Assembly: GCA_030386875.1 (NCBI GenBank)
Contig: CM059560.1
Coordinates: 35,148,183 to 35,212,182, forward strand
Length of the DNA stretch: 64,000 nucleotides
Reading direction: 5' to 3'
Source of the DNA: Morinoia aosen
Taxonomy: Eukaryota; Arthropoda; Malacostraca; Amphipoda; Talitridae
Made by a program: the position numbers and the translations under genes. A model generated the notes under the pieces. That model had not been told where the DNA came from, did not search any database, and saw nothing but the letters and a program-made list of their open reading frames with translations. Positions 3,550-64,000 of this stretch are shown here, one piece after another (the stretch's first letter is position 1; every line of letters begins with the position of its first letter).

Positions 3550-3550
3550 G

Positions 3551-3582
3551 GCTAACTCGTAACACAGTCCCCACGAGTTAGC
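3551..3582. other. 10-bp-stem hairpin
   Basis: GCTAACTCGT and ACGAGTTAGC form a perfect 10-bp stem with a 12-nt loop just after the R2 repeat. There is no poly-T tract or gene context that would give it a role; it may be a remnant of an element end. Confidence 0.4.
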
Positions 3583-4401
3583 AGGGGAAGTCTGTCAGTC
3601 GTAAACGTACAGACGTCTATCTCCTTCTTGTGTTGATTTTAAGCGTGAAGATTAATATAATATATTCTCTCACTATGGTATACGTCTATGTGTGTTTTTT
3701 CCTGTATACATGACTTCAATCAGTGATTTTTAATTTGTTAATTCAATAAATGTATTGTACTTATCAAGTGAGCCTATTTTTTGCCTTCAATTCAGGTGGT
3801 AGCATTCTCCTATTCTAATGATTTAGAACCCCTGCTATTGTAAATTCATTGTTGCTTTAAGTTATAATTAATACATTCCCCGCGTATTGAGCTATATGTT
3901 TACCACTAGGTAAGTTGCTCATTCACTTACCGGTATAAATGAATGACATTTAATCTTTTTCGTGACCTTTTTCAAAAATAACTGTTATCGTACGAAGTGA
4001 AACGTTAACGTGCACTCGTGTTTTCTTTATATTTCTTAGGAAGGATATAAATGAATTCGAGCATTCGAGTCGATTTTCCTATTCTACTGCATACAACCCA
4101 ACCAAATGAACTGTTTGGAAACGCGGTGAACGTGTTGAACGCCTCGTTCGTTTTTTAGTTGAATTGGGCATTTGTTATATCGTTATATTTGGGACAATTG
4201 CTTTGCGGAATTGGTCATCAATTTATAGGTATATTGACCATTTATTTACTTGTAAAATGGTCATTTATTTATATTTAAATCGATGATATATTTAAAGGTA
4301 AACGGGTCATTGAGTTACCTACTTAAACCGTTTTCACAACGTTGTTGGTGCGTCATAGACAAATTTCTCTGTGCCGAGCTTTGGAGCGTCAGTTGCTGTG
4401 G
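3583..4401. other. Non-coding AT-rich interval
   Basis: No coding frame, RNA gene or dispersed repeat was recognised between the R2 copy and the hAT-like element. AATAAA-like hexamers occur but without any adjoining exon. Confidence 0.4.
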
Positions 4402-12388: not shown

Positions 12389-12976
12389 TTGCAGCTGCCA
12401 TGTTCACTGGTAGCGGGGGAGGACAACGCTGCGTTCTTGTTCTTGAATATTCAAGGTTTGAGGCCCTACAGGCAGAAGCGCAAGGTGGAAATGTTGAGGG
12501 AAAGGGCCTTGGCTGTTGGTGCGGGGCTGGTGGCCCTTGTTGAGACCCACCTTAACGAAGAAATCCTGGACGCTGAAGTTAAAATGGAGGGCTTCTGCCT
12601 GTTCAGAGCTTATCGAACAGCTGGAATAAAGAAGGGGGGAGTTGCATGCTATGTCAGGAACGACGTATCTCGACATGCTACAGTCCTCTCTGCCGGCACA
12701 AACTCGGTGGTGGAGCACCTGGTCTTGTGGTTTGCCGGCCTGGGCTTGGCAGTGGTGATTGTTTACCGCCCTCCAACTTGTCAACAGGCTAACTTTGAGC
12801 AGGCAATTAGCCTCATAACCTCGGCGCTCGAATCTCTGCCACCTCCACTCCCCAGAATCGCTGTTATGGGAGACTTCAACTTTCCAACCATGTGCTGGGA
12901 GTCGGGTAATGCAATGGGGGAACGAGAGAGTCAAGAGTGCAGAGCGAGTACCTCTGGAACTTTATGGAGAGTTTAG
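12389..12976 (+). CDS. LINE endonuclease (EEP domain), frameshifted end
   Basis: The open frame encodes the N-terminal endonuclease/exonuclease/phosphatase fold. Visible motifs are FLFLNIQGLRP (the N of the first strand), VALVETHL with the catalytic Glu, GGVACYVRND, VIVYRPP, and VMGDFNFPT with the catalytic Asp and Asn. The frame ends in a spurious tail after about 12905. The expected continuation, including the SDH motif (MSDHRCIL), is in the next frame from 12937, so a small indel at about 12905-12937 broke one ORF into two. Confidence 0.85.
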   Translation: MQLPCSLVAGEDNAAFLFLNIQGLRPYRQKRKVEMLRERALAVGAGLVALVETHLNEEILDAEVKMEGFCLFRAYRTAGIKKGGVACYVRNDVSRHATVLSAGTNSVVEHLVLWFAGLGLAVVIVYRPPTCQQANFEQAISLITSALESLPPPLPRIAVMGDFNFPTMCWESGNAMGERESQECRASTSGTLWRV

Positions 12977-15399
12977 CCCTGGAGCAATACGTCCGCCTCC
13001 CAACCCGACTAGACAATGTCCTAGACCTGTTTTTAACAAACGACGACGAGTTGGTCAGACGGGTTGAGGTTGAGGAGACTATTATGTCCGACCACAGATG
13101 TATCCTCATATATGGTGACCTTGGCCTGGAGCGGCAGACAGTCTGGGACCGGGGAGCGTCGGGAGGGTCGCTTGACTCTCTCAATTTTATGAGTGATCGC
13201 GTAGACTGGACTGGCCTATCGGGAGCGCTGGGTGACATTGACTGGGATGCACGTTTGGCTGGACGTACCCCCAACGAGATGTACGACGAGATCCTCGCTG
13301 TCTTGTCCGAGGTCTGTCCAAGATATGCCCCAACACGAAAGATTAGGGGGATAAACCCAATACCTAGGGACCGGAAGGTACTAATGAGAAAGCGCTCAAA
13401 GCTGCTTAAAAGAGTTGGGACGTTGGCGCGCTCAGGGACCGTCAGGGATGGCATCCTTGAGAGAGTGGCTGAGATCGAGAGGCAGCTCGAGGCGTCGCAC
13501 GAGGAAGAGGCAAGATCCTGTGAAGATAGAGCTATCGCCGCTATAACAAATAACCCTAAAAACTTCTACTCGTACGCCAGGAGGAAACTTTGCACAAAGT
13601 CGGTTGTGGGACCGTTTCGAGTCGACGGACGGAATGTGTGCACCCCTGAAGAGAAATGCGCTGTGATGCGCGCACAGTATGAGGCGGTATTTAGTCGGCC
13701 CAAGTTTGGGGAAGACGATGGCGGCTGGGGCCCGAATGAATGGCCGAGTACCACACCGATAAACCTCGTGGACTTTGAATCCGGTGAACGAGACGTTGAG
13801 GAAAGCATTGGCGAGCTCTCACCCTCGTCGGAGCCGGGTCCAGACAGTGTTCCGGCTGTCCTCCTATGCAACTGTAGAGTTGCCATCAGCAGGCCTTTGT
13901 TCCTGCTCTGGAGGGCATCACTGAGTGCGGGGTCCATACCTACCAAACTCAAGCTGGGAATTATTACCCCCATATATAAAGGTGGCGAGAAATACCTACC
14001 CCGGAATTATAGGCCGATCACACTGACCTCCCACATTATAAAGATCTTTGAGAAAATAGTAGTGAGAAGGCTGGTGGGATATATGGAGGATGCTGAGTTG
14101 TTCAACCCCAGTCAGCACGGGTTTAGTAGAGGGAGGTCCTGCCTCTCACAGTTGCTTGAGCACCAACGGCACATTACGGAGGCCCTCGGTCGTGGTCATG
14201 CAGTGGACGCTGTATACCTAGATTTTGCTAAGGCATTCGATGAGGAAGACCATGGGATCTTGCTTAGAAAGTTGAGGGCTGCTGGCGTTGGTGGCGACTT
14301 GTGGAATTGGATCAGGTGCTTCCTTACTGGCAGAAAACAAGTAGTGGCCGTTGACGGATGCCGGTCAGCCGAGTCGCGAGTGATAAGTGGAGTGCCCCAG
14401 GGCTCGGTGCTTGGACCACTTTTGTTCCTGGTCCATGTCAGTGATATTGACGTCGGATTACTTCACTCCTGCGCCTCATCATTTGCGGATGATACAAGAG
14501 TTTTTAAGGAAGTGGCGAGCAAGCAAGACTGCGAGGCCATGCAGCAGGATTTAATCAAAACCTACGAATGGGCCGAGGTGAACAACATGTGCTTCAATGA
14601 AAGCAAGTTCGAGCTCCTTCGTTGCGGTCACCATCCGGATGAAACCTTCCCCTACACAACTGCTGGTGGGGTGGTTGTGGAGAGGAGGTCACCAATCAGG
14701 GATTTGGGCGTGATCGTGGAGGACGGGGGAAGCTTCACAAAGCACATAGACTTGGTCTCAAAAAAGTGTCTAAGTCAACTCGGATGGATCCTCCGGACGT
14801 TTCGTGCCCGGGAAGCAGCGGCCATGATGACCTTGTATAGAGCGCTGATTTTGCCCCTGGCCGAATACTGCTGCCAGCTGTGGAGTCCAATTGCGACGGG
14901 GGAGATCCAAAAAGTGGAGGCAATTCAGAGAACGTTCACGTCGAAAATCGTCGGAATGGAGCGGTTCAACTACTGGGAGAGGCTCCAGAGGTTATCGCTG
15001 TTCTCCCTGCAGCGACGACGAGAGCGGTACTTGATAATTTACACCTGGAAGATGCTGGAGGGATTAGTACCAAACTTTGTTGACCCAAGTCTGGCGTTGA
15101 GAATTAGACAGCATCCCCGATTAGGGAGGTTATGTTTCGTTCCGCCATTCAACAACAGGGCTCTAGCCAGCGTGAGGACGCGGCATGAAAGATCTTTTTC
15201 AGTCATTGGCCGAAGACTCTTCAACTGCCTCCCAATCGAACTGAGGGAGTCCCGTGGGAAACTGGCTGCCTTCAAATCAAGGTTGGATAAGTTCTTGGCG
15301 TCGGTCCCGGATCGACCTCCGACACCGCATTACTACCAGCCTGCGGCGGGCAACAGCCTCCTGCAGCAGGTGGCGCAGCTGCGAGTGGAGGAAATGTAG
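12937..15399 (+). CDS. LINE reverse transcriptase ORF (820 codons)
   Basis: This frame continues the endonuclease above: EYLWNFMESLALEQYVRLPTR, a long linker, then the RT. RT motifs in order are PIYKGGEKYLPRNYRPITLT, QHGFSRGRSC, the catalytic YLDFAKAFDEED, GVPQGSVLGPLLF and SFADDT at about residue 515. A C-terminal thumb follows with AEYCCQLWSP, MERFNYWERL, RRERYLIIYTWKMLEG and FNCLP. Sequence style is CR1/L2/jockey group. The frame has no internal stop, so only the upstream frameshift disables the copy. Confidence 0.9.
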   Translation: MQSEYLWNFMESLALEQYVRLPTRLDNVLDLFLTNDDELVRRVEVEETIMSDHRCILIYGDLGLERQTVWDRGASGGSLDSLNFMSDRVDWTGLSGALGDIDWDARLAGRTPNEMYDEILAVLSEVCPRYAPTRKIRGINPIPRDRKVLMRKRSKLLKRVGTLARSGTVRDGILERVAEIERQLEASHEEEARSCEDRAIAAITNNPKNFYSYARRKLCTKSVVGPFRVDGRNVCTPEEKCAVMRAQYEAVFSRPKFGEDDGGWGPNEWPSTTPINLVDFESGERDVEESIGELSPSSEPGPDSVPAVLLCNCRVAISRPLFLLWRASLSAGSIPTKLKLGIITPIYKGGEKYLPRNYRPITLTSHIIKIFEKIVVRRLVGYMEDAELFNPSQHGFSRGRSCLSQLLEHQRHITEALGRGHAVDAVYLDFAKAFDEEDHGILLRKLRAAGVGGDLWNWIRCFLTGRKQVVAVDGCRSAESRVISGVPQGSVLGPLLFLVHVSDIDVGLLHSCASSFADDTRVFKEVASKQDCEAMQQDLIKTYEWAEVNNMCFNESKFELLRCGHHPDETFPYTTAGGVVVERRSPIRDLGVIVEDGGSFTKHIDLVSKKCLSQLGWILRTFRAREAAAMMTLYRALILPLAEYCCQLWSPIATGEIQKVEAIQRTFTSKIVGMERFNYWERLQRLSLFSLQRRRERYLIIYTWKMLEGLVPNFVDPSLALRIRQHPRLGRLCFVPPFNNRALASVRTRHERSFSVIGRRLFNCLPIELRESRGKLAAFKSRLDKFLASVPDRPPTPHYYQPAAGNSLLQQVAQLRVEEM

Positions 15400-21902: not shown

Positions 21903-23688
21903 ATGGCCGAACTGCCATTGGCAAATCGGTTTAGTGATTTGAGAGAGTCAGAAGATCCCTGCTCTGAAATCGAAGAAGAGCTGTTGCTAGCCGCCAATCC
22001 TGCCAGTGAAGAAGAGCAAACCGACGAAGAGAAAACAATGAGTACTGAAGAAATTAATGAATCTGTAATACAAGGGACTTGGTTCAAGGAGAACATCCCA
22101 TCAAAAAAAAGAGAAAGAACCAGTGTAAGCCTCTCAAGCTCAAACTCCGATTGTGACACATCAAAAAAGACGCGTAAAACTACTCAGTCTCCACTTGAAC
22201 CAAAAAAGATTTACCCAACTAATAAAACAATGGCATCCAAACAGAAAATGTGTAGTTACCTTGCTGATCACTCAACTACAGGAGTCAAGCAATGAATTAC
22301 TTGGAGCAAACAAGAAAAAAATGACCTATGACCCATTTGGACTGGCTCAAGGACTGAAACAAATACTGAACTATGACTACATTAAAGAGGTAAGAGTGAA
22401 CAAACGACGAAACCTGATTGCAGTTGAATTCAAAGAGACTACCGAAGAAGAAATAACAAGACTGTTGAAAATTAACAGCGTTGGAAAATTTGCAGTTAGT
22501 TGCTATAAACCACGCTCAGAATCCTCACAATCTACCTTTGGGGTTATTAGACCAATTGACTATGATGTAAATTTAAATGAGCTTATCCCAATTGCCAGCT
22601 GTGAAAATGCCAAAGTTATCAACATGGTCAGACTGCCAAAATTCTCTAATGGAAAAAAAGAGGATTCCCTCAGTGTAAAAGTACAATTTCAAGGCAGTGA
22701 TCTCCCAAAACAACTTAAAATAGAATACATGAATTTCAAGGTCAATCCGTATTCACCTCCACCTATCCGATGTTATAAATGCCAACGTCATGGACATTTT
22801 GCTACTGGGTGTACATCTGTTGAAAGGTGCCTTATCTGTGGTGGAGGCCATTCAAAAGACAAGTGTAGTGCCCCCACTCCCTTCTGTGCTAACTGCAAGG
22901 GGAATCATGTGGCCAGCTCTAGAGAATGCCCATATATTCAAAATGCTGTTCAAATACAAACACTGATGAAAGAAGGCGTCTCCTTTTCAGAGGCTCAAAG
23001 GCAAATCATATATGAGACCACAGATAGTCTAGAATCTATCTCGCAAAGAGCCAAAACCACTTACAATGAGCCAAGTTCTCAACTGAATCAATGGAACAAG
23101 GAAAAAACTGCCCCTACGCAAGAAAAAATGCAAATTCCAGAATCAAGGATTAATGAAAAAACATATGCTGCATCTCTGAAAACCACACAACCAAAACAAG
23201 TGACCGTTCCAGCTGATGTACACCAATCTCAAGGGTCCTACTACATACCAAGAAGGATTCCCCAGGTCAAACCCAACCAGCCTAAGCAGAATGTACTAGC
23301 CTCTCATTTTAATGATCGTCAGCCTTCGCAAGAAACAATGGTCACCAACGAAGATCCAATACAAGTAGTGCTGAAGAAAATTGAGTCCCAGGTACAAACT
23401 ATGTTTGAGGATTTCTTCTTCCGCCTGGGTAAATTCATGATGGAAGCATTTTCATCTAACTTGAACCATGAAAACAAGCGTGAGAGGAATCTTCTGCTGT
23501 TGGGAATGATAAGAAACCATCTTGGCCAAAAAATTGGAGCACAGCTACTCAGCGAATATCATAGTAATGTAAAATCTCAAAATAAAGGTGAGACTGTTTT
23601 GGAAAAAAATTCTAAAACCCCCTCCAAAATTCCTCTTTCTCATGCTAAAGGAAACAAAAGATTGGGAGCAATTCCAAGAAAGAAATGA
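21903..23688 (+). CDS. I-type element ORF1 (gag-like), one frameshift
   Basis: The ATG at 21903 opens an acidic N-terminal part (MAELPLANRFSDLRESEDP...) that stops at 22295. The main frame, open from about 22153, carries the rest to the stop at 23688. The +1 shift most likely lies in 22260-22295, before NELLGANKKK. The main frame holds an RRM-like region (about 22320-22760) and three CCHC knuckles at 22770-22935: CYKCQRHGHFATGC, CLICGGGHSKDKC and CANCKGNHVASSREC. The product would coat element RNA. The stop codon overlaps the ORF2 start as ATGA (23685-23688), which suggests reinitiation or coupled translation. Confidence 0.88.
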
Positions 23689-26600
23689 TGCGTAACTTTA
23701 AAATCTGTGATCAGAAAACCAAAAGAAGTGGTGCTTTGGAAAAAAATCTTCTTGTTTATCAACTAAATTGTAATGGTCTATCTTCTAAATTGTCAGAAGT
23801 GAAACTCTATCTATATACTAAGAAACCTGATGTACTGTGTTTATGTGAGACATTTATCAAAACTAAGGAGCCTAAATTTTTAGGCTATGAGTGTGTGTGG
23901 TCCCATAGGAATGATGGAGCCAAAGGTGGATTATGTTTCATTATTAGAAATGATATTAATTTTTCTGTGAATAATATAGATAGTTATTTAAATGGTAGAT
24001 TAGAGATTGCATCAATTAAAGTGTTCTGTTCCTTTGGTTATATTGATATATGTAATATTTACAATCCTAATGCATGTATTACTTATGAAGAATTTTATCA
24101 TTATTATGTTCAGATGAGTGATTTGTTTATATTCATTGGTGATGTGAATGCTCATGCGCCTTTGTGGGACTTTAAAGGCCGACTGAATGCTTCGGGAAAG
24201 AATCTCTGTAAACTTCTAGATGAGAACTCTCTCGGAATACTCAACCCTCCCAACTTACCCACTTACATAGACGCTCGAGTAGGGACAAGTTCCACATTAG
24301 ACTTGTGCATTGTCCCTCCAACTCTCCTTGCTTGTGGGTCTCTTCAGAGAGGTGCAGACCTTGGGAGTGACCATTATCCCATTGAATGTACTTTTGGTAC
24401 TGTAATACAAAAATCTGAAAACCATCTCTGTAGATGGATTATTAAAAATGCAAACTGGGTTGGATTCAGAGAAAAACTATCACAAATCCATACAAGTCAG
24501 ATAATGAATCTTTCAGTTGATGATCTAAATGCACTGTTGACAAAATCTTTACAGGATGCAGCTAACAAGTACATCCCCAAATCTTCCCCAGCTTGGGGAG
24601 CTAGGAGGAGGACACCATGGTGGGACAGAGAGTGCGCTTTGGCTGTAGCACAGCGAAGGAAAGCACGCAACAAGTTATCAAAATATCCCACGGCAGAAAA
24701 TCTACATCTGTACAAGGCATGTGAAACCAAAGCCAAAGAAATCATTAAGCAAAAGAAAATTAAAAGCTGGACTAGTTATGTAAGCACTCTGGACTCCAAC
24801 ACTGGTGTTGGTAATGTTTGGAGGCTAATACGCTCCATGAGGGGCAGTTATGTGAATCCACGCCCAACTGTTGGTGACATAGCTGACAGCACAGCAGACA
24901 AAGCTCAATTATTACTGGCCCATTTTTCTCGACACGAGATAAAATTAGGTGATGAATTTTCTGAAACAATCGAAAATACCATCTCAAATTTAGCAGCAGT
25001 ACAGGTAGAAGATACATATCTTAACTCTCAAATTGAACTGCACGAATTCCAGAAAAGTTTAAAACACGCAAAAAATACTAGCCCTGGTTTTGACGAAGTT
25101 CCTTATGCTTTTTTCACCAAAGCACCATATTCATTTCTGGAACATGTAATCTATTTATTCAACAAAAGTTACTCTAGTGGTTATTTCCCAGAAGCATGGA
25201 AGTTGGGGATTATATGTCCAATAAAGAAGCCTAAAAGAGATCATTCGATTCCCAGTGGGTATCGACCCATCACTTTGCTATCATGTTTCTCAAAAATCAT
25301 GGAACAAATTGTTAAACGCAGGCTTGATTATTTTTTGGAAAAAAATAAAGTTTTCTCTTGTTATCAAACAGGGTTCCGTAGAAAGCGATCTACATATGAT
25401 GCTCTTGCTCTAATTAAAAACTGTATCTCACAGGCCTTCTTCAAAAAAGTTTATTGTTTGATTGTTTATATAGATTTGGAAAATGCATATGATATTGTGT
25501 GGCATGCTGGACTATTGCATAAGCTAATAAATATTGGTTGTGACATTCGTATGGTCTTATGGCTACGATCATATTTAAGCAATAGGTGTGTTAAGGTAAG
25601 GGTGGCAGATGCTGTCTCATCTGGCAAAATTCTTGCTTGTGGTTTGCCCCAAGGTGCAGTCTTGAGCCCCCTGCTGTTCAATGTGATGCTTCATGATTTA
25701 CCTCAGATGGAGAGCATCCAATGCATTGCATATGCAGACGATGTGACTATAGTTGCAAGTGGGAGATCCCCAATCGAGATCCAGAGAACGATGCAGAACT
25801 ACCTTAATTGCCTTACGAAATGGCTGAAAAAGTGGAAACTTGCCATAAATGTGGATAAAACAAAGTATCAAATCTTTACACATAAAAAATATGTACCATT
25901 GATTAACCTCAGATTAAACTCTAAACCAATAAATAAAACTGATGAACAGCGTGTACTTGGAATAACATTGGACTCCCCTAAACTTACGTTCTTACCACAT
26001 ATACGAAGTGTCAAAACAGAGTGTCAAAGACGGCTGCAGGTTCTCAGGGCATTGTCTGGCGTCTCGTGGGGATCTTCTCAAAAATTATTGCGACAGGTAT
26101 ATATATCATTCATTAGAAGTAAACTTACGTATGGACATATAATCTTCACAAAGCTACCTGAAAGTAGTATGAAATTATTTGGTGTGATTCAAAATTCAGC
26201 TCTGCGATCTATCTTGGGTGCACGGAAAACATCTCCAGTTTCCTCAATGGAAGCTGAAGCATTCATTATGCCTCTGAGATTGTACCTTGATTTCTTGTTC
26301 CTGAAGTGGTGTTTGAGGTGCAGTTTCTCGGATGCTGAGCCCAATGAGTTCCCAGCAAAAATTGAGCTATTTAGATCTCCTCCAAAAAGTGAGCTTGCAC
26401 TAAAACGTGTAGAAATAATGAGCAAGATTCAGTTTAATTTTTTTCCTCCAGGATCCCAAATTGAATATTTCACTTCTCCATGTATTGAGATCTCATCTAA
26501 TGTGTGTGTTGAATTTCCTGATGTTAAATCTCTCTCTGCAGCTGAGGTAGATCATAAATTTGAAGAGTATGTAACATCAAAATTTTGTAACTTCTATAGG

Positions 26601-27470
26601 ATCTTCACAGATGGCTCCAAGCTACAATCAGGTTCAGCATCCGCTGCTATGTATGTACCACATCTAAAAATATGTACTTCTTGGCTCCTAAACCCAGGTC
26701 ACTCAATTGTGGGAGCAGAGCTATTTGCAATTTTACAGGCTGTAAATTATACGGTTGATAACTTATCAAATCATAATGTGGTCATTTTTGTTGATTCTAA
26801 ATGTTCCCTGGATATTATATTGAACTTGACTAACCCCACCTATGAGATCTTTAGTAAAAAAATTCAAAAAATGGTTGTTCAATTGAATAACAAGATTCAG
26901 TTACAATGGATCCCTGCTCATTCAGGCATAATGGGAAATGAGATAGCGGACCGATGTGCAAAAATGGGTCACCAAAACTCAAAATCAGTACTCACTTATC
27001 TTAGTTATGAGGAGCAGGTTAGCCAACTGAAAAGCAAAATGTTGGACTACTGGAGCGAGTGTTGGGGAAATCAAGTGAGGGGATCCGGAAAGGGGAGATT
27101 TATGTATGAGTTGTGTAGTAGACCAAAGTTTAGATTGGGTGACGCCATGCCACGAAAATTTCAGTGTATTATTAGCCGATTTAGAATTGGTCATGTTGGT
27201 GTTCTTTCTCATTTGAGTAGATTTAACCTGTGTCAAAGCCCTCTCTGCCCAGAGTGTGGTGTTCCAGAGACCATTGAGCACTTCTTGCTCAGCTGTCCGC
27301 AATATGAGGCTGCCAGACTCCATTTATGTCTACCTTTTGTAAAATTTAATCTTGAACTAAATCTGAAAAATGTCTTAGGATTTGGCGAATATCAATCCCG
27401 TGTACAATTTGCAATTCTCCGCTCCTTGGTGAACTTCCTTGGTGCTACTAATAGATGTAAGCTTCTATAA
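23685..27470 (+). CDS. I-type element ORF2 polyprotein (1261 aa), intact
   Basis: The order of domains is clear. The endonuclease lies at about residues 22-240 (YQLNCNGLSSKL, LCLCETFIK, FIGDVNAHAPLW, LGSDHYPIEC). The reverse transcriptase lies at about 470-760 (CPIKKPKRDHSIPSGYRPIT, TGFRRKRSTYDAL, YIDLENAYDIVW, GLPQGAVLSPLLF, and AYADDVTI at about 680). RNase H lies at about 970-1095, with FTDGSKLQSGSA, GAELFAILQA, VIFVDSKCSL and GNEIADRCAK carrying the D-E-D-D residues. It ends with a zinc-knuckle-like CPECGVPETIEHFLLSC. All catalytic motifs are present and there is no stop, so this ORF could still encode an active enzyme. Confidence 0.95.
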   Translation: MMRNFKICDQKTKRSGALEKNLLVYQLNCNGLSSKLSEVKLYLYTKKPDVLCLCETFIKTKEPKFLGYECVWSHRNDGAKGGLCFIIRNDINFSVNNIDSYLNGRLEIASIKVFCSFGYIDICNIYNPNACITYEEFYHYYVQMSDLFIFIGDVNAHAPLWDFKGRLNASGKNLCKLLDENSLGILNPPNLPTYIDARVGTSSTLDLCIVPPTLLACGSLQRGADLGSDHYPIECTFGTVIQKSENHLCRWIIKNANWVGFREKLSQIHTSQIMNLSVDDLNALLTKSLQDAANKYIPKSSPAWGARRRTPWWDRECALAVAQRRKARNKLSKYPTAENLHLYKACETKAKEIIKQKKIKSWTSYVSTLDSNTGVGNVWRLIRSMRGSYVNPRPTVGDIADSTADKAQLLLAHFSRHEIKLGDEFSETIENTISNLAAVQVEDTYLNSQIELHEFQKSLKHAKNTSPGFDEVPYAFFTKAPYSFLEHVIYLFNKSYSSGYFPEAWKLGIICPIKKPKRDHSIPSGYRPITLLSCFSKIMEQIVKRRLDYFLEKNKVFSCYQTGFRRKRSTYDALALIKNCISQAFFKKVYCLIVYIDLENAYDIVWHAGLLHKLINIGCDIRMVLWLRSYLSNRCVKVRVADAVSSGKILACGLPQGAVLSPLLFNVMLHDLPQMESIQCIAYADDVTIVASGRSPIEIQRTMQNYLNCLTKWLKKWKLAINVDKTKYQIFTHKKYVPLINLRLNSKPINKTDEQRVLGITLDSPKLTFLPHIRSVKTECQRRLQVLRALSGVSWGSSQKLLRQVYISFIRSKLTYGHIIFTKLPESSMKLFGVIQNSALRSILGARKTSPVSSMEAEAFIMPLRLYLDFLFLKWCLRCSFSDAEPNEFPAKIELFRSPPKSELALKRVEIMSKIQFNFFPPGSQIEYFTSPCIEISSNVCVEFPDVKSLSAAEVDHKFEEYVTSKFCNFYRIFTDGSKLQSGSASAAMYVPHLKICTSWLLNPGHSIVGAELFAILQAVNYTVDNLSNHNVVIFVDSKCSLDIILNLTNPTYEIFSKKIQKMVVQLNNKIQLQWIPAHSGIMGNEIADRCAKMGHQNSKSVLTYLSYEEQVSQLKSKMLDYWSECWGNQVRGSGKGRFMYELCSRPKFRLGDAMPRKFQCIISRFRIGHVGVLSHLSRFNLCQSPLCPECGVPETIEHFLLSCPQYEAARLHLCLPFVKFNLELNLKNVLGFGEYQSRVQFAILRSLVNFLGATNRCKLL

Positions 27471-34043: not shown

Positions 34044-34935
34044 CAGTGGTACCTCGGTTCTCGACCGCCTTTATACTTGATCAAATCGGTTCTCGACCGC
34101 CTCTATACTTGATTAAATCGGTTCTCGACCAAAAAATTCGAGTAGAAAATGCTTTGGACCTCGAACAGATTTTCGGTACTCGACTAGCCGAGTCGATCCG
34201 AACGCGCTCCTTGGCCAGCGGGTAAGCGTCAGTTCAACTCTGACCGTGAGCGGAGTAAGACGTACGCAGTTTGTTCGAGTACTGTATTTCTTTCCAGATT
34301 TAAACTTTTTCGTGTTGCTCTAGCCCTTAATTATGGGTCCAAAGAAAGACAGTGATAAGGGGAAGGCAAAGAGGAAAATAGTGAGGACCACTATTGAACT
34401 GAAGAAGGAAATTATTGCAAAATATGAAAGTGGTATTCGAGTGTCCGACCTCGCGTCGCAGTACGAAATGGCAAAATCAACCATTTCCACTATCTTGAAG
34501 CATAAGGAAGTGTTAAAGAAAGCTGATGTTGCAATGGGGGTGACAGGAATTAGTAAGCAAAGGCCTGAGATAATGGAAGAAATGGAGAAGTTGCTTCTTA
34601 TCTTCATCAAGGAGAAGATGTTGGCAGGGGACAGCATTAGTGAAGCTCTCATCTGCAAAAAAGCTCTTCAAATTTACGAATCATTATGTACTGCTTGTGC
34701 ACATTTACGTCTTCATTGTTCTTTAGAAACACGTTCTTTTAATATTTTAGGTATTTTTCTTAATGGTAAGAACGGATTAAATTACTTTCCATTATTTCTT
34801 AAGGGAAAATTGGTTTCAGTTCTCGAACAAATCGGTTCTCGACCACCACCTCAGAACGGATTATGGACCACCACCTCAGAACGGATTATGGACCACCACC
34901 TCAGAACGGATTACAGTGGTACTGAGGTACCACTG
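34044..34935 (+). mobile_element. Tigger/pogo-type deletion derivative with subterminal tandem repeats
   Basis: The ends are CAGTGGTACCTC and its inverse, with TA on each side (34042-34043 and 34936-34937), which is the pogo/Tigger target. Inside the left end a 32-bp unit starting CGGTTCTCGACCGCCT is repeated at 34055 and 34087 with a partial third at 34119. Inside the right end a 25-bp unit (GACCACCACCTCAGAACGGA core) is repeated three times (34840-34914). The right terminus is doubled as CAGTGGTAC-TGAG-GTACCACTG. Only the N-terminal part of a transposase is left. Confidence 0.85.
34333..34686 (+). CDS. Tigger transposase N-terminal HTH (psq/CENP-B-like) fragment
   Basis: The ATG at 34333 opens MGPKKDSDKGKAKRKIVRTT and continues ELKKEIIAKYESGIRVSDLA, SQYEMAKSTISTILKHKE. 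This is the first helix-turn-helix of pogo/Tigger/CENP-B type proteins, which binds the element ends. Family-like sequence goes on to about residue 118 (EALICKKALQIYESL) and then breaks at an internal deletion. The same frame runs on to 34995 through terminal-repeat sequence, which is read-through. The second DNA-binding domain is partial and the DDE catalytic domain is gone, so at most a DNA-binding peptide could be made. Confidence 0.8.
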
Positions 34936-34937
34936 TA

Positions 34938-36000
34938 CTATGAATTTCAACAATATCCTCTAACTCTTTATGCAGCAACTCTGTGCATCCAATGATACCA
35001 AAATCATTGCTCTTCAATTAAAAGTTTCTGAAAAGAAGTGGCTTGAATATTGACGTTTGCATAGTTCAAAGAAATCAGCGCAGTTGACGTTATGAAAGCT
35101 ATTCTGAAATATTGACTTGACTTTGGCTATCTTTCATCAAAGTATTTTGTGGTTCCTTGAAGAAATCGGTACCACAAGTGGTACCAGGGGCCAGGCACCG
35201 AGCGAGATACACATGAGGCTCAGGGGTAATGCATCCCTCAGGTGCACCTGAGATGCACTTCAATCCTAACTAAACTTATCAGCTACTCAGAGCTTGACAG
35301 GCAGATTCAGCTTGCCGTTAGACATCGTAATTGCTTCGGCATTGATGTCACACTGAGCTCCTCGGAGGCCAGCAGTCTTATTTATGTCTACAGAACCAGA
35401 GGTTGGGAGGTCCATGGGAGGTACCGAGCGCTCAATGTTGCCAAATCGTAAAAGTTCTTGAACAGCTGAATGATAAATACATACGTCTTTAGAAATAAAC
35501 AGTTGGTGAGCAATATCTAGGTGAAATGATATGGCACATGAGCGCTGAACCCCATGTGACCCTTCCCGCCACTCCTTCTCCCCCGTTTACTTGCCTTAGG
35601 TGCTTCAGATGCTTCCAAATTTTTTACTGCGCATTAACTGTGCATTGCTCTACCGAATTAAGCAATAAAAGACAATTCATTAAATTTCGGACTTCCGGCT
35701 GAACTTAAACTAAAGGTTAGGGAGTTTAAGTGAGATGTTGAGGTAACCTTGCACTTGTAATTAAGTCCTTATCAATTGATGGTAAGTTGCATTGTCTCTG
35801 AAGTAAAATGAGTACAATGAACACCTGATTGAATTATATGGTAAAGTTGGATGAAAGTTCTCAAGAGGTTAGAATGAAGTATTGTGTAATTCAAGAATTC
35901 TTCATTTTTAAAGAGTTCAGTAGATTCTAAGGGACTATCTTAGTTTTTAAAGAAGAATGGGTTAGCAGATTTCAATTGGATTAGTGGAATTTAAATCCTT
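34938..36000. other. Non-coding interval
   Basis: No gene or dispersed repeat is recognised. Around 35160-35210 a GGTACCACAAGTGGTACCAG near-palindrome stands alone. Confidence 0.35.
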
Positions 36001-41020: not shown

Positions 41021-42099
41021 TTAATTTGGTTACCCTGTTCCTAACTTAGCCAGATTGAACTCAAAATATTGATAGCAAAACGGCAATGTCAGAACTCGAT
41101 GCTTTCCGAGAGCATGAGAACTCAAGTAATGGAAGGGAGCCAATGACAATGAACATTTCTTGGTAGTAAAATGGTCCAAGTGAGTATATTTCTAATTTTT
41201 TCTTAGGTTTCAAGTATTAAACAGTATGTGCTTGTTCGATGAACAGTGTGTGTTTTCTGGTCAGACTATAATGAATCTTATTAAGCTTTTACTTAAGATT
41301 AGCTCACACATTTGAGATTGAAAACAAAACTTTTAACTTCCTACAGTTTTCATTTTAGTACATTTACTGATCTACGTCCATTTTATTTTATTTTTGAAGT
41401 TTCTATTGTTCAGTACTGTTTTAACATTTTTACTTTGTTAATCCTAGAGATGTGACTCAAAAAAAACCATGCCGTTTTTTTTACAAAAAAACGTGGCCAA
41501 AAAAAACGTGTATATATTTTTTTTTAAATATTTTGTCTGAAAATAACTCAGCAAGAAAAAGAACCACATTAAATTATTTGTTTTCATGTCATATTACAAA
41601 ATAAAACAGCATACTTCTTAATTGGGGGTTTTCCATGGTTTTATGAAATTTTTTGTTTTCTGCGGTTTCATGCTTTGATATTTCATTTATTTTACAACAC
41701 ATGTGAATGACCTTCAACTCCCAAAATGGTGTGTTATAATAACAATCTTTACTTATGGTCATTGATAGAGATGTGACTAAAAAACCATGCTGTTTTTAAA
41801 AAAAAAATGTTATTTATACAAAAATTATGAATAAAAAACATGGATAATAATATATTTATGTGACCCTAAAAATCCAATGCTGTTTTTTCTAAAACATTGT
41901 TTTTTAACAGAAAAATCTTGACTAAAAAAACATGGCTATTATATTTTATGGGACCAAAAAAATTTTTTTTCTTAGACATTAAAAAAAATCATGACTAAAA
42001 AAACACGGATGTAAATATCAGGAAAGTTATTTTTCTTTAATCAAATTGTCTTTAGAAACTTATAAACAAAGGATGTTCTTAATATTGAAATCATGTTTA

Positions 42100-42358
42100 T
42101 TAGAACTGTACTAGGTCTTAGAATAAAATATCTACAAAGAATCTATTCACTCCATAAAATCTTTCGGAGACCAGCTCCATCCTCAGTCATTCAGTAAAAT
42201 TTGGTAAAATGGACAATGAATTTTCACTGTTCCTTTGAAAAACATTTGACTGAATGACTTACTGAGGATGGAGCTAGTCTCCAAAAGGTTTTATAGAGCG
42301 AATAGATTCTTTGTGGATATTTTATTCTAAGACCTGGTATGGTTCTAATGGATATTAA
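42100..42358. repeat. Long hairpin within the hAT-like element (left)
   Basis: Arms of about 100 bp (42100-42197 and 42245-42358) pair with few mismatches: GGTCTTAGAATAAAATAT against ATATTTTATTCTAAGACC, and a CTCCATCCTCAGT block against its inverse. The loop is about 50 nt. Confidence 0.8.
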
Positions 42359-42785
42359 TATATCTTATGTGACCAAAAAATCCATGCTATTTTTTGAATG
42401 ATTTTGTTACAAAAAAGTCATGACTAAAAAACACGGATATTAATATACTTTATTTTACCATAAACAACCATGCTGTTTTTTTTAAAGCATCTTTTTACAG
42501 AAAAATCATGATAAAAAATGTGGATATTAATATATTTTATGTGCCAAAAAAAACCATGCTGGTTTTTTTAATCATGTTTTCTTTACCAAAAAATCATGAT
42601 GTAAAAACATGGATATTAATGACTTTTTGTGAAAAACATGGTTTTTAAAATGTCATGTTTTTTTGGTCAGATAAAATTTAATAACACTCCTGGTTTTTGT
42701 AAAAAATCTTTTTTTCAAAAAGCATGGTTTTTTGGTCACATAAAATAAATTAATATCCATGTTTTTTTACAGATTTGATTAGTCA

Positions 42786-43049
42786 TTAGTTTTAGCCTCC
42801 CTACCCAGCAAAAAATGCGATCCAAAGAGAGGAAGGAAGATTATGAAACAAGATCAAAGTTGAAGAAGACAGTATTAGGTGCTGAAGAACAGGACAGCAG
42901 TGAACTGAAAAAAGGTGGTCCTCAACATAACAAAAACATTTTATTTCAACAAAAAGGAGGCCAACCTAACTTTCAGCTTGGGCCCTCACATTGTCCCCCT
43001 GGGAGCGCTAGTTCCCACAGATACAATAGTTGTATCCTCCTGAGGGGGT
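42786..43049 (-). repeat. S1 SINE-like copy inside the hAT-like element
   Basis: Reversed S1 copy of 264 bp, shorter than full length because part of the 3' half is missing. CACATTGTCCCCCTGGGAGC and GATACAATAGTTGTATCC at its right end are the family head. It sits near the switch of repeat orientation. Confidence 0.8.
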
Positions 43050-43493
43050 GTTTTTTTTACAAAGAAGTTGTGACCAAAAAATGAATCATAATTTTTTAAT
43101 AAAAAAACATGTTTAAAAAAAACAATGATTTTTTTGGTAACATAAAATATGTTAATATCCATGATTTTAAGACACGATTTTTTATGAGAAATACATAAAA
43201 TAAAACAGCATGGTTTTTTGGTTGCATAAAATATATTCATATCCAGGTTTTCTTATACATCATTGTTTGTAAAAAACATATTTTTTAAAAAACAGCATGG
43301 GGTTTTTTAGGTCTCATAAATATATTCATGTTTTTTTAGTCATGATTTTTCAGTAAAAAACATGTTTTTTAAGAAAAACTGCGTGGGGTGCTTTTTAGGT
43401 CACATAAAATATATTGTTTTTTAGTCATGATTCTTTGTAAAAAAAACTAGCATGGTTATATTTGGTACCAGAAAATATATTAACCCTTTAACG

Positions 43494-43704
43494 CCTACAT
43501 TTTTATACTCATATTATCGTTATGGCAACCACTACCACTAAACCTACACTGGCATTAGGTAGTCACTGTTACCAAGATGGGGAAGGAACTGCCACTTGGT
43601 AGTGAAGTTCAAAGGACACATTAGTGAACAAATTAAATAAGAAATACAATATATTATTGTTATTTTTGAAAGAGGACCGAATAGTCCAGTTGGGCATTAA
43701 AGGG
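43494..43704. mobile_element. piggyBac-type MITE with TTAA duplication
   Basis: A 211-bp unit with ends CCCTTTAACGCC and, inverted, GGGCATTAAAGGG. It is flanked by TTAA at 43490-43493 and 43705-43708. CCC-starting ends plus a TTAA target are diagnostic of piggyBac-like elements. It has no coding capacity. It lies inside the 2.9-kb hAT-like element. Confidence 0.85.
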
Positions 43705-43837
43705 TTAATATTCATTTTTATTAGTTAGAATTTGTTGTAAAAAACATGTTTTTAAAAAAACAGCATATTTTTTTGGTCACCTAAAATATATTAATATCTA
43801 TGGTTTTTAGTCATTTTTTTTGTAATGAAAACATAAA

Positions 43838-44170
43838 AAAGAAACCATACAGTAAAAGTGGTGGCAGATAACCCACAATTACCTAGAGGAGTCTAAGAGG
43901 TACAGCAGGAGCCACAGAACTTACCACAGAACTTATATTGATGGAGTCAAAATTCAGAGCTTATTATCTCTGCTATGTATGATTTTTTTGGTCACATAAA
44001 AATAAAATCAGACATAGTTGCTCTGTATTATTCTATTCTAGATATTCTAGATAGTAAGCTCTGAATTTTGACTCCATCAATATAAGTTCTGTGGCTCCTG
44101 CTGTTCCTCTGAGACGCCTCTAGGTAATTGTGGGTTATCTGCCACCACTTTTACTGTATGGTTTCTTTTT
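43838..44170. repeat. Long hairpin within the hAT-like element (right)
   Basis: Arms of about 115 bp (43838-43973 and 44053-44170) pair through GAAACCATACAGTAAAAGTG/CACTTTTACTGTATGGTTTC, TGGCAGATAACCCACAATTA and a TATTGATGGAGTCAAAATTC block. The spacer contains a tandem-repeat unit (TTTTTTTGGTCACATAAAA). The left arm carries a short internal duplication (ACCACAGAACTTA). Confidence 0.8.
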
Positions 44171-44392
44171 GACGTTTTTATAACAATAAAATGACTAAAA
44201 AACATGGATATTAATATATTTTAGGTGTCCAGAAAAAAAACACAAAAAAAAAACAAAAAAAAACATAAAAACACGTGTTTTTGCAAAAAAAAAACCGCAA
44301 TAAAATAAAACTGTTTTTTTTGCATCACTAGTTAATCCTCATCTGATCTCATTTGGTGTAAATCTTGGTGAAACTCGTAGATCAACCCTTAA

Positions 44393-58059: not shown

Positions 58060-61000
58060 CTGAAAAATAATAAGAATATTCGAGAAAAAATTCCTAGTTC
58101 CGAACACAAGTCGTCAAACCTTTGGATTAATGTACTTTTTCGGAATTTTAAATGATTGTGGCACAAATACTGACGTTCTTAGGTCCAATATTAGGGATTG
58201 TACAGGCTGTTAAAACAATGTACTTAAGTAACTTGTCAATTTCATAGAGTAAAATAGCGCACTTTGACAGAACCCTCAATATGAAGGGCAACCAAAAACT
58301 GAGTACAGCATTTCAAGCAACTAAAAAATTAAAACAAAGGCGTACGGTCGAGCTAACTCATAGAGCTAACTTTCTACGTTCCCTTCCATTTTCACAACAG
58401 TAAACGTAGTTTCTGCTTACTCTCCCGAATCGTTGATTTTCGAAACGGAAGATAGGATACGAGACGAAAATCTAATCTGACGGTTAATTAAACACTTACC
58501 ATTTGGCTAGTTCTCATTTAATCTATTTTTCGGTCTGTTCACTCCATACTTTTTCTCACAAGCAACTTCATCTCTTTTCTAATTAGATTCAGCTTGCACT
58601 TCCATTAGATGCCTCTAAACCTTGGAATACTCCTTTCTTGCAAAATGCAAAGTTGAAAATAACGTAATTTCTCAGCAACCCTGAATTTATCATCTCATAA
58701 AATCATTAGAAATTTTCATTTATGTGTTTATAGCTACAAAACCATGAAACTACATAAGATTGGTTTACCTTCTTAGAATAAAGCTATTGCTTAGAAGATC
58801 ATATTGAAGGAGTTAGTTTAAGCCTCCCTAACTACAACAAAAACGTTTCTAAGAGAGGAACGAGAACAGTATCATTCAGTAGGAAGTCAAGGGAACGGGA
58901 AATCTACGCACTAAGCGTGTTCTCACACAAGATCCCTTCGGCCTAGAAACAGCAAGTTAAGAAGTATTTGAAACAAGGTAAAAGTTGAAGAACATAATTA
59001 TAGGTACTGAAAAACAAGCAGCAATGAAAATGAACCGAAAAGATAGTCCACCAGAAAATAAAAATCACATTTTATTTCATCAAAAGGCCTACCTGACGTT
59101 CAATTAGGAACCTCTAATCTTTCTCTTGAGAGCCTTAACTTTCATAGATACTTTCGTTGAATTCCATCAAATTGAGGAGACTGTTAGCTTAGAATTAGCC
59201 TAATTTTTTCAAAGATCACACCTGTTTAATAGATGAAAAGAGTAACGTGTCTAAGGCAAAAATGTTAAGAAAAATTTCAATGAGCTGAAAATTTTTTTTG
59301 AAGCATCCTGATCATCAAGTGGTATTGAGAGTCACACTTAATGCCTTACTTAAGATGAGAGCTTATCTTTCGCTCCCGGGAGAAAATACAATGTAAAAGT
59401 GATACATTATAAAAAATCTAGTACTTACTGGATTAGTGAGAACGATTTTATTATCTTTGGTTTTGAGCACAATGCAGTTTTCGCCTTTATACTGCACCAA
59501 TTCGGACGACACTTCCTCCAGCTGATCCATGAAGATGAGTTCTGGTTTACCAGAGCTGGAGTCCGAGTGAAGTTCCACCCTGTTAGGGTAGAGCTTTGCA
59601 TAGCGCGTTTGCCAGGCTGACGTGAAGGGACCTCCTAGCTTCTTGATATAACCGTGTATGATGCAGTCCGACTCTGAAAACAGAGGGAAATCAAATTTAA
59701 AAACATTCCTGTTATCTGAAGAAGACAACTTTAAGTGCGGCAATTCAAACGCCATTAATAAGTGAATAACTAAATCGAGAATACAAACTCAACATAGCAC
59801 ACCCTTGTTGTGATGCTGACTACTTGCACTCATGATCAGTTGCAAATTAGTAAAAAATTTCACCAGTACTAAATCGACTTACTTTGTTCAAAAATTCATG
59901 CGATTTTACTATTCAAGTCGATAATTCAATTGTGGTGGTAAAGCCCAGATTTAAAAAAAACACCCTAATTTGAAATCAGAGCTATTAGGAATAATCACAC
60001 GGTCAGTTCATTGTAAATACACAATTTCTTGACATCAATTTAGGGCGATCGTGAGACGGCAAGTGAACAAAATTGTACCTTTTTCATCGGTGTCAAACTT
60101 ATGCTTGTGTTTGGCTTTCTTCTTGAGCTCGTGTTTGTCAGCCTCCTGGTTTATGGAGTCAAACACGGTCTCTGCGACCTCAGTCTGCCATCGCTCGCTG
60201 ATCACCAGAGGGAAGTTCCTGTACAGCTCCTGGTCCGCCTCCGTTAGCTAAAGCACAGGAAGTAATGAATTATGAACCATCATAATCATAATAATCATCA
60301 CTTCCCTTACGATTATCGGCTCAATTTTGGGAATTGTTATCAAAGCTGTTCAATAAATTTTTTGTAATCAAAACCCAAGGATCATACCAAACCTAGCGTA
60401 ACTTAATTTTGCCTCAAATTTAGCCACTAGACAGCCTTTTTAACCTTTAACCCTATACGGACGGACTACTGTGGATTGTAAAGGACATCAGAAATAATGT
60501 AATTCGGAAACTTCAAATGCATCGTATAAAAAATAACAGCATTTACTATTGCAAGTGTTAATTTATGTTAATTAAAACTAATTTAGGTTGTAAAAGGTTA
60601 TTTTTAACCTGAACTTTAACTTCACATAAAAGCCCACCAAACTTGGAGAATCTTTAACCCACTTCACAACCTCAAACCACCTGTCTTATTTCAACGATAA
60701 AAACTTGAAAATGAAAAAAAAATCAGACAGTACACGATATCACAATATAAAAAATCAGACAGTACATAAATCTGCTGGCGTAAATGAACTAGAGGCAAGT
60801 AAGCCTAGATTGGTACAACAGATATCCTAAAAGTACGAATAATTAATATAAATGCATGAACAGTAATTTAAAACTGCTACAGCCATGTACTTTCTACCCA
60901 TATGAAATATTAAACAATCCTATGCATTCCTTTCGCCATGAAGGCGTAGCCAATCAATCGAGAAACAGAGTCAACATCGCTCACTGTCAATCACGCTCGT

Positions 61001-63568
61001 TTTCAATGCGTCTTTTCAATAACAAGGCCCGACAGCAAAAACTGGTTTGTCCCTGCAGCTCCATGAGGACTCAAAGATTCCAGCCCTACAATCACAACAC
61101 GGTTGAGCCCCACCTGGACAGCTTCTTAATCTGACACAATCGCTCTCCGCTCTTCTATTGGTATTGCGTATCTTCTAACTTCTTCTGACGTAACACTTTG
61201 GTCAAAAATAAGTAAGTAACCACTGAACTTTTGACAGATGGTTGATTTGTCAAATGATAAACTTTTGACTACATAAGATCTGTGACGTGACAAAAAAGAT
61301 AAAATTCAAGTGGCAGCTCAGCGATATATTAATTTTGAAAACTGATGTAATTCTATGAAGTACATCCTGACCTAAAATTTTACAAATTTTGAATTACTTA
61401 TTATACGTTTTCTGACGCAAATCAGTACACAGTGTTTCACAACAGTCGTCGCATCAACGGAAGACAATAATTGACAGCCACACAAAACTTGACAGCCACA
61501 CAAATTACCTCGCTTGATAGAGATTATGAAGAAATCATCCAGTGCAATTTACGCGCAGTGATTACACTCAAAACAAAAGCTTACACTCGGAAAAATAAAT
61601 TTTTCGAGTGGGAACGGTTAACACTTAAAATTGGAATCATATTTGGACCTCAATCGAGCAGAACACAGTTCATGACAAAAACTTTCACAGGGAAGTAATG
61701 TCATGCTATGTTTTACCATTGCTAACTAAACAAACCACTGAAGAGCAAGCTAAATGGGCTGTACAGACGTTCGAAGCTTCACACTAATCACCCCAGTAAT
61801 TTAAAGAACTCGCGCAGCTAGAGTTTGTGCACTCATAAGCCTCTTACTTTGATGCCTTTTGTGTCCTCCTCATCAAAAGAGCCGATATCGAAGGCGTCCG
61901 CTGCGTTGACTTCTCCTCTGGGCGGCACAAGAGGAGGCTGGTACTGCTGCATGTATACCTGCTGCCAGTCTAAGCTGCGAAAGAACGCGTGCTCCTTGAT
62001 CTCGTCCGCTCTGCAATCAAAGTAAACTTTGTGAAAAAATATATGTATTATTGAATGAAATTTTGTCAGTAGTGTCATTTGTTTCACTAATTGCTATACT
62101 TAAAAAAAAGAAACAAAAGAAATTAAAAGGGAGAGAACAATGAGAAAGAAGCCAATTGGAAAAATGCATCAGACGAAAGGAAAAAAATAATTTATCCTAC
62201 AGTAATTGAGTGAAAAATTCTTAGCAAGGATACGTGTTTTGATGAAATAACTATGATTTATGCTGTGCGTACGTTCTGTTCTGACAGCAATAAACATTAC
62301 ATTTGAAGAAACTGAAGAATTTTGAAAATAGAAAACAGACAAATGAAAGACGAATTGGATCCTAAGGCATTTTGAGCTGCACAAAGTCTCTTGATAATGA
62401 GTATACCAGGTTGCCATTCAAACAGGGTTTGGAGATTTTTTGGTCAGAGTAAAGATCCTTGAGAAAGTCCTGCCCATCACGCAGCGGGAATGAAGAGTCA
62501 TCGGGAAAAATGGTCTAAGCTACATCAGGCGAAAGTGTGGAAGTTACAGAAAATATATATTTTTTTAAGACGCACCCTCTTCCTCGGCATCCCAGTCTTT
62601 TATCAACGTCGCGGTGCAGTAGGCCTTCCAGCAACGTCCTTAGTTCGTTAGTGAATGTGTCTGGCAGCTCGACGTTCTGGTAAAAAATAAATTTATTACT
62701 TGCTTTTCCGATTCGCCTGATCAGTGAATAAAGGCCACCATTCATCATAATTTTGATCAGAAGTCTCCAATGCGCGTGCAGCCTCCAGTATTTAAAGTTC
62801 ATTGGCAAAAAAAATTCGTGCCACAAACGTCATCGTCTACACGCGCGTGAAAAATAACAGATAAAAGAACAAATTATATTTTTCTCTGTCAGAGCAGCAC
62901 TAAATGACTCTTACCCTGCAAGTGTATGAAATTTATGCTCACGAAATGGCAAACCTATTTTTGAGCACAAGGATGAGAAAGAATGGTGTATACGATATCT
63001 ATTTTTAAATCACAAAAAAAGTCCTAGCACATAAACACTTTCAATAAAGAGTTTTCCATTAATATTTTTGATCATAAATCCAAAGGAAAGATAGGGAACA
63101 ATTATTATTTGTAGTATTTCACAACTATCAATTAAATTTCAGGAATATTTTTCCAGTAAAACAGTTCTGTAGTAGTAAACGCAATGAAAAAAGTAGTGCT
63201 TAACAGCAGGCGAAGTACAAAAGGCACTCGAACAAGGCTAAGAGGGCTTCAGTCTTTAAATCAGACGCCAACCCGATCTAGTCGTTAACAAGCTGTTATT
63301 CATCATCAGTAAGAAATGAGAATAAAAAACTATCAAAAGAACGATCATATTTTTGAGCCACAAAATATCCATGTATTCAATTGGAAGACTTACCATAGTC
63401 AGAGTCATGCGATCGATCTCGTGCTTATCTCGGGTCTTGTGTTGCCGGAACGGTGAGTGTCCCTTCAGCAATTTGTAGAGCATGCAGCCGAATGAGAACC
63501 AGTCAGCCGAACTGTCGTAGGCCGTGCCCTTGCTCAACACCTCTGGAGCCATGTAGCCGTGGGTTCCT
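57871..63568 (-). CDS. Gprk1: G protein-coupled receptor kinase, GRK2 type (C-terminal 346 residues)
   Basis: Six - strand exons join without a frame error: 63568-63394, 62676-62576, 62010-61848, 60247-60079, 59673-59429 and 58059-57871. They encode the kinase C-lobe from [10 protein letters not shown] on, the AGC tail ([27 protein letters not shown]), a PH domain ([10 protein letters not shown] to LKEWANSLR) and the C-terminus. Only GRK2/3 and fly Gprk1 have this PH tail after an RGS-kinase unit. The family phosphorylates activated receptors at the plasma membrane and the PH domain binds G beta-gamma and phosphoinositide. The N-terminal RGS part, the N-lobe and the catalytic loop lie beyond the window's right edge. 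Confidence 0.95.
58813..59160 (-). repeat. S1 SINE-like copy in the last Gprk1 intron
   Basis: Reversed copy: TTAGTTTAAGCCTCCCTAAC at the 3' end, TAAGAGAGGAAC, a GAAAAACAAGCAGCAATGA block, and a decayed head near 59150. It lies in the 1369-bp intron 58060-59428. Confidence 0.75.
59429..59673 (-). CDS. Gprk1: Gprk1 PH-domain exon
   Basis: A 245-bp exon between TTTTCAG and GTAAGT. It encodes [20 protein letters not shown], then [15 protein letters not shown] and the remaining beta strands to KIVLTNP, that is, nearly the whole PH sandwich. Confidence 0.94.
60079..60247 (-). CDS. Gprk1: Gprk1 AGC-tail exon
   Basis: Starts [20 protein letters not shown] and ends in a lysine-rich linker ([18 protein letters not shown]). 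Acceptor TTTAG, donor GTACAA; ends in phase 1. Confidence 0.94.
60250..61847. other. Gprk1 intron
   Basis: 1600-bp AT-rich intron with no recognised insert. A direct repeat of AAAAATCAGACAGTACA occurs at about 60718 and 60752, and TTGACAGCCACACAA is doubled at 61470-61505. Confidence 0.5.
61848..62010 (-). CDS. Gprk1: Gprk1 kinase-tail exon
   Basis: Encodes [20 protein letters not shown], then [20 protein letters not shown] and [14 protein letters not shown], among the most conserved segments of GRK2/3. Phase 2 in, phase 0 out. Confidence 0.95.
62576..62676 (-). CDS. Gprk1: Gprk1 kinase C-lobe exon
   Basis: A 101-bp exon: [20 protein letters not shown] then [14 protein letters not shown], the kinase subdomain XI region with the conserved Arg of RLGC. 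Donor GTGCGT is slightly weak. Confidence 0.94.
63394..63568 (-). CDS. Gprk1: Gprk1 activation-segment exon
   Basis: Starts by completing a codon (likely Val), then [20 protein letters not shown] with the APE motif and [20 protein letters not shown] with the subdomain IX Asp. Ends [12 protein letters not shown] at a GTAAGT donor. Confidence 0.95.
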
Positions 63569-64000
63569 CTGCAGCATAAATCAACATCATTATCTGAGGC
63601 GCTAAGTTCCAAAATAGAGCCTACAAGTGCTTCGGTAATGGAAAATAAACCGTATAAAATAATACTCACTAGAGGAACACAAGCAAGCCAAGCAGCAATT
63701 CTATGAGGAAAAACACCCGCAGTTCTACGTAGCAAGTCTCTTGAGTGACAGCCCAGTAGCTTGCGCAAGTGGGTTCAGTAACTGGATAAGTTCTGACTTG
63801 GTATGGTATCTGTTCCAACTCTTTCCCATCAAGACTAAAACACGCGTAAAGAATGAAGCAATTTTCCAAACTATACATTGACCCGATATACATACGCTAA
63901 TAGCATGTATTTCCAAACACTTCGGTAAAAAATGACGGGAATTATGTTAAGGAAAAATTACCACAGACTTTGCCAGTAATAGGGTATCATATACGCTAAA
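63569..64000. other. Gprk1 intron continuing past the window
   Basis: No upstream kinase exon (DFG or catalytic-loop HRD region) is present before 64000. The short - strand frames here carry no kinase motif and are not exons. Confidence 0.6.

Follow-up and report, generated by a model that had tools for sequence, protein, structure and literature searches.

A probable non-autonomous, foldback-like family of the hAT superfamily with facing arrays of a left-tip-like unit in the amphipod Morinoia aosen

The 64,000-nucleotide stretch of Morinoia aosen DNA analysed in this work (hereafter, the window; contig CM059560.1 of assembly GCA_030386875.1, positions 35,148,183 to 35,212,182) harbors a copy of what is very probably a non-autonomous, foldback-like family of the hAT superfamily, in which the transposase would be supplied from elsewhere and a unit resembling the left tip would have been amplified into two facing arrays and then copied as a block. 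This agrees in part with the first-pass annotation: a hAT-type mobile element, other copies with their duplications and empty sites, and facing arrays resembling the left end were all recovered, whereas the likeness of the unit to the right end was not.

The element spans positions 41445-44330 (2,886 bp). As had been claimed, it is bounded by an exact 8-bp target-site duplication, GTTAATCC, present at 41437-41444 and identically at 44331-44338, with TAGAGATG and CATCACTA at its ends. The TAGNGATG and CATCNCTA motifs occur four and three times, respectively, in the 64-kb window, and 41445/44330 is the sole pair of them no more than 15 kb apart whose flanking 8-mers lie within two mismatches, the match in this case being exact. 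The left tip (41445-41502, plus strand, starting with TAGAGATGTGACT) resembles the array unit; the right end (44238-44330, minus strand, starting with TAGTGATGC on that strand) is A/T-rich. Expressed as patterns, the ends of the family are TAGAGATGTGAC and TAGTGATGCAAAA. When the two ends are compared, TAGAGATG and TAGTGATG agree in seven of the eight terminal bases, and further in it is mainly A-runs and A-rich sequence that align; short terminal inverted repeats of 10-25 bp are reported for the hAT superfamily (PMC3942097). An inner element starting at 41766 was also considered and discarded: the 8-mer beside it, GTCATTGA, is absent from the right end and has just one further occurrence in the window, at position 4306. 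A tRNA scan of the window retrieved nothing, and an Rfam scan of it gave no family above the gathering score.

A profile of the ~85-bp unit yielded 16 matches at E<1e-3 within the element and none elsewhere in the 64-kb window; none of 200 dinucleotide shuffles of the element contained any match at this threshold. The repeats had been said to run one way in the left half and the other way in the right half, and the profile bears this out, with seven matches on the plus strand (41450-42605) followed by eight on the minus strand (42619-43798) and one more on the plus strand (44206-44236). This refined profile was trained on the window element's own units; the inversion does not stem from this training, since a first profile made of four forward units only already gave seven reverse matches, besides six forward ones, at E<1e-3. 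The forward units occupy 41766-42020 (unit matches at 41771, 41842, and 41940, after a second, internal tip that starts with TAGAGATGTGACT at 41766 and includes an internal TAGAGATG) and 42350-42608 (matches at 42350, 42435, and 42522), both on the plus strand. According to the profile, the reverse units, on the minus strand, lie at 42619-42758 (ahead of a SINE-like repeat), at 43084-43483, and at 43728-43798 (past a MITE). The lone forward unit at 44206 is explained by its position within the outer arm of a palindrome (palindrome 2, below) whose arms include array sequence.

Tandem Repeats Finder likewise detected arrays of ~84-90 bp in the element. The architecture of the element is that of a foldback, with long inverted tandem-repeat blocks around a middle, these blocks being diverged and interrupted rather than perfect inverted repeats. 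Moreover, the motif A5+C(C)RTG, which was picked post hoc, occurs 21 times in the element versus a mean of 0.32 and a maximum of 2 in 200 shuffles and, scaled to the length of the element, 0.19 times in the remaining window sequence. By analogy with Hermes, these repeated A-run/CATG motifs may represent putative subterminal repeats to which the transposase would bind through its BED fingers.

The unit had also been proposed to resemble the element's own end. This holds for the left tip, whose 58 bp reach 18.0 bits when matched to the four-unit model (8.2 for the highest-scoring of 2,000 shuffles), and fails for the right tip, whose 2.3 bits fall within the range of its 1,000 shuffles; the right tip was therefore rejected as the source of the unit. 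The left tip is followed by a left domain of ~260 bp (41503-41765, plus strand) that is common to the family and has no confident unit matches. The second TAGAGATGTGACT comes directly after this domain, and it is there that the array starts. In another copy (L064), tip and left domain are present twice, head to tail. The tip likeness, the internal TAGAGATGTGACT, and L064 favour an inward duplication of the left end, which probably took place via recombination between tip-like sequences, the partners of which would be the tip and its internal copies.

Searches of the host genome placed family sequence at no fewer than 78 loci, the window included (that is, at least 78). The full-length query, with 40 sequences scored of 8,480 first-look candidates, retrieved the window and 39 other loci, one of them compound; these are the best-scoring copies and lean toward window-like forms. 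The 266-bp left-domain query, with 40 sequences scored of 1,820 first-look candidates, matched 40 places besides the window at 93-96% identity; 39 of these were additional ones, two of which share a locus. Hence, 38 loci are known from the left domain alone, and the three that were read (0.7-1.0 kb each) all continue into the array. Viral contigs were considered as a source of relatives, and one 22-base pattern gave no matches in them.

The search for other copies with 8-bp duplications and empty sites, suggested by the first-pass annotation, succeeded on both counts. The 8-bp duplication typical of hAT elements, exact in the window copy, was also exact in 29 of the 39 other copies read, including one with a mutated tip (L033). 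Both ends were recognised in 29 of the 39, and 28 of these have exact duplications, all 28 different; the remaining one (L045) has both ends and no matching duplication. In L010 the duplication matches at seven of eight positions, and in eight of the 39 copies the search rule found no right end in the stretch examined. For the insertion in L042, unfilled paralogous sites were found in the flanks of L043 and L037; in the former, the first 60 aligned bases, spanning the junction, are identical, and the latter provides a second site with mismatches. One locus (L044) is a 5.9-kb compound copy, apparently consisting of two elements in opposite orientation between one outer pair of ends, with one exact duplication, GGCACCAC.

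The block order is constant: in 28 out of 28 copies tested, the forward block comes first and the reverse one second; this count covers the 28 copies with an exact duplication under the regular-expression rule and leaves out 11 of the 39. The number of units is similar but not fixed, since 26 of these 28 copies have 13-17 unit matches, the exceptions being the compound L044 (28) and a deletion copy, L047 (9). Corresponding units compared between copies show a median identity of 92.5-96.5% (six units, 34-39 copies each, local alignment), and different units within the window copy are 79-92% identical, in this case by global alignment, so that the two figures differ in alignment mode. Both the constant block order and the smaller difference between corresponding units than between units of the window copy indicate that the arrays predate the spread of the copies; the array does not look like one in ongoing expansion. 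Over about 2 kb, the identity of the window copy to the majority letters is 95.6%, and that between the closest pair of copies is 99.6% (in an alignment that omitted nine of the 39 copies), which implies recent movement in at least some lineages. The best-supported scenario is the following: a hAT transposase whose gene lies elsewhere would excise and reinsert elements with ends of the TAGAGATG / TAGTGATG type, leaving 8-bp duplications, and amplification of the left-tip-like unit in an ancestor common to the examined copies would have produced the facing arrays, which have since been copied as a block.

What the arrays do is a separate question, and one that leaves the hAT assignment untouched. 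The repeats might be passive filler, with just the outermost tens of bases mattering for mobility, a possibility that we rate only a little below even. L047, with its nine unit matches, still has an exact duplication, although the loss of units may have followed insertion; in Hermes, BED domains are bound by three repeats of the left end and by none at the right end (PMC10368747). Against this stand the array order kept across copies and the strong enrichment of the motif, although common descent alone would explain the conservation.

Concerning the enzyme, none of the six copies checked (of which three are incomplete where the sequence read stops) contains an open reading frame above 103 codons, measured from stop to stop, and hence none has a transposase gene of its own. 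Probing the genome for the hAT dimerisation domain (PF05699) gave 150 scored matches of 2,753 candidates, from which 13 loci were sampled; both flanks were covered for five of them, and 1.5 kb of downstream sequence for the other eight. The first-pass annotation had also called for a full hAT transposase with the same ends. No locus with the ends of the window family was found among these 13, eight of them seen on the downstream side only: the five hAT-transposase loci gave no BLAST match to the window element, and the eight 1.5-kb downstream stretches contained no family right end and at most one A-run/RTG motif each. One sampled element, covered by L048 together with L053, starts and finishes with TAGTGATG, is flanked by an exact CTTTGATT duplication, and encodes a BED finger (zf-BED) and a hAT dimerisation domain; it shares the 8-base tip, whereas its subterminal repeats are CCGATAC-like, unlike those of the window family. 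Several other sampled hAT loci have TAGTGATG-like right ends. The presence in the same genome of this TAGTGATG-ended BED/hAT element with its 8-bp duplication, and of the TAGTGATG-like right ends, makes the superfamily well supported. As a separate observation, many of the hAT dimerisation-domain matches listed lie on contig C21, in two broad stretches (about 62.8-83.2 Mb and 4.0-6.0 Mb), a pattern that would suit the local amplification of a transposase-derived gene family.

An origin from another cut-and-paste superfamily with 8-9-bp duplications, that is, a Mutator-like or P-like foldback of the kind of Tetris and Galileo, would suit the fact that foldback architecture is known mostly, with exceptions, from Mutator-like elements (PMC4079207); we consider it very unlikely in view of the TAGTGATG tip, which is also that of a hAT element with a transposase in this genome, and, as a modest signal, of the base composition of the duplications. 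Position 2 is T in 12 of the 28 duplications and position 7 is A in 14 of the 28, a bias (pooled p = 0.007 for a background set at 30%) toward the consensus nTnnnnAn of Ac-type duplications (PMC8961557), which fits the Ac group weakly. Finally, the notion that the units are a satellite or minisatellite grown locally, with hAT-like ends by coincidence, is in keeping with the arrays reported by Tandem Repeats Finder but is scarcely credible and was ruled out, given that no unit match at E<1e-3 lies outside the borders in the window and that the block recurs at other places within identical borders and between different 8-bp duplications.

Returning to the hAT-type element, the hairpins, the SINE, and the piggyBac-type MITE previously described as embedded in it are all present, with different ages: the SINE and the hairpins are ancestral, and the MITE is a later insertion in the window copy. 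Palindrome 1 (42099-42349, 251 bp) is imperfect and almost loopless, 83% self-complementary by alignment, and its sequence (query 655-905) was matched at many other copies. The SINE-like dispersed repeat (42772-43051) is flanked by a 10-bp TTTTTTTACA duplication (42762-42771 and 43052-43061) and has ten other matching places in the window, one of them over just 49 bp; with its flanks joined, the unit score showed no increase (41.4 bits). Both lie inside the stretch common to other copies and were thus caught before the copies spread. Palindrome 2 (43768-44237) has inverted arms and array sequence at both edges; it is also present in other copies, some of which (e.g., L019 and L047) lack part of the right side. 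Replication errors may alternatively have given rise to this palindrome and to A/T-rich repeats.

The MITE (43484-43704), which we take to be of the piggyBac type, has matching CCCTTTAA inverted ends and a TTAA duplication (43480-43483 and 43705-43708), and the unit scores 32.2 bits in the interrupted state and 36.1 bits once the flanks are joined. None of the 39 other copies has a match chain over that place (query 2040-2260), which points to a later insertion in the window copy. In L043-L046, a related MITE occupies a different unit. In L023 (2961-4000), another piggyBac-type MITE, with TTAACCCGCGCACG, apparently sits in the same TTAA of the corresponding unit as the different MITE of the window, with TTAACCCTTTAACG (43480). 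Sequence like the L023 MITE also adjoins the window element, from about 44487 on.

A sister form of the family, of ~4 kb, has two further palindromic inserts, A and B, both missing from the window copy. In L016, insert A (about 674 bp, element positions about 2164-2837) is bounded by CAGAATTT, and insert B (about 3065-3617), flanked by CTTATTAT, sits within the loop of palindrome 2; the two show 8-bp duplications and GGTCAATG / GGTAAATC ends. The unfilled sites are preserved in the window copy, that of insert A at 43724-43737, with an 8-mer one base off the CAGAATTT duplication, and that of insert B at 43956-43973, with CTTATTAT. Both exact junctions were found in 12 of the 39 copies for insert A and in 11 of the 39 for insert B. 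In a midpoint-rooted tree of 40 copies, given here without support values, the 21 copies with motifs of insert A or B form an exclusive group. The family then probably acted as a carrier, in which the SINE and palindromes 1 and 2 would have joined the master and a younger master would have gained the two further palindromic inserts. More speculatively, and in our opinion rather improbably, the facing arrays would themselves make it a carrier that collects such inserts: the number of palindromes grows from one master (2.7-2.9 kb) to the next (4 kb), each of the two latest palindromes having an 8-bp duplication of its own and one of them lying within the loop of an earlier one, and the dense putative transposase-binding repeats across the whole body would keep ever longer, hairpin-rich copies mobile.

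Elsewhere in the window, long reverse-transcriptase open reading frames were observed at 23649-27470, 12910-15399, and 9041-10666. The first of these combines endonuclease, reverse-transcriptase, and RNase H domains in one open frame, from which this LINE may be young. Two exon-like open reading frames on the minus strand (59363-59788 and 63256-63774) encode PH and protein-kinase domains, and presumably resemble an arthropod G-protein-coupled-receptor kinase. Another one, at 34324-34995, has a CENP-B N-terminal domain and is, we assume, perhaps a fragment of a Tigger/pogo transposase.

The window family is a clean, multi-copy hAT-type case, with duplications and empty sites, in which a left-tip-like unit in facing arrays has spread as a block. 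Its near-identical recent copies and deletion forms (L047) are material to test whether extra subterminal sites aid non-autonomous movement, and it displays an ordered series of masters gaining palindromic cargo. Foldback elements with 8-bp duplications and repeat-built inverted ends are also represented by the TU elements of sea urchins. Foldbacks of sea urchins are cited in the work on Tetris (PMC4079207). The window family joins a known kind, tandem repeats inside inverted ends being already present in Tetris, Galileo, and gadMor-hAT-1784 of the Atlantic cod, and the idea of extra binding sites is already published for Galileo (PMC3688188) and Tetris (PMC4079207).

Like the window family, the hAT-derived MITE gadMor-hAT-1784 is non-autonomous, with inverted tandem-repeat blocks of ~600 bp and no open reading frame; its unit is 167-169 bp long, compared with ~85 bp, and the terms "target site duplication", "TSD", and "8-bp" do not occur in the main text of its description (PMC12368964). 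Tetris, a foldback of Drosophila virilis, is non-autonomous too, with 8-9-bp duplications in complete copies and an external domain plus internal tandem repeats; a 37-bp stretch common to the external domain and the repeat led to the view that the repeats are end-derived. It differs in its ~220-bp repeats and in the Mutator affiliation suggested by its authors, and it is also a source of satellite arrays (PMC4079207). Galileo shares the long inverted repeats and the internal tandem repeats holding extra transposase binding sites; however, it belongs to the P superfamily, with a THAP domain, and its binding was shown by experiment, the window family being known from sequence alone (PMC3688188). 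Hermes and other hAT elements have the 8-bp duplication, short tips, and subterminal repeats near the left end, but the bound repeats of Hermes lie in the first 35 bp of the left end, whereas in the window family a larger unit is repeated throughout the element (PMC10368747). The captured SINE and the stacked, nested palindromes, which set it apart from gadMor-hAT-1784, are the window family's own features and, the literature covered being open-licence papers, with no claim that they are unreported.
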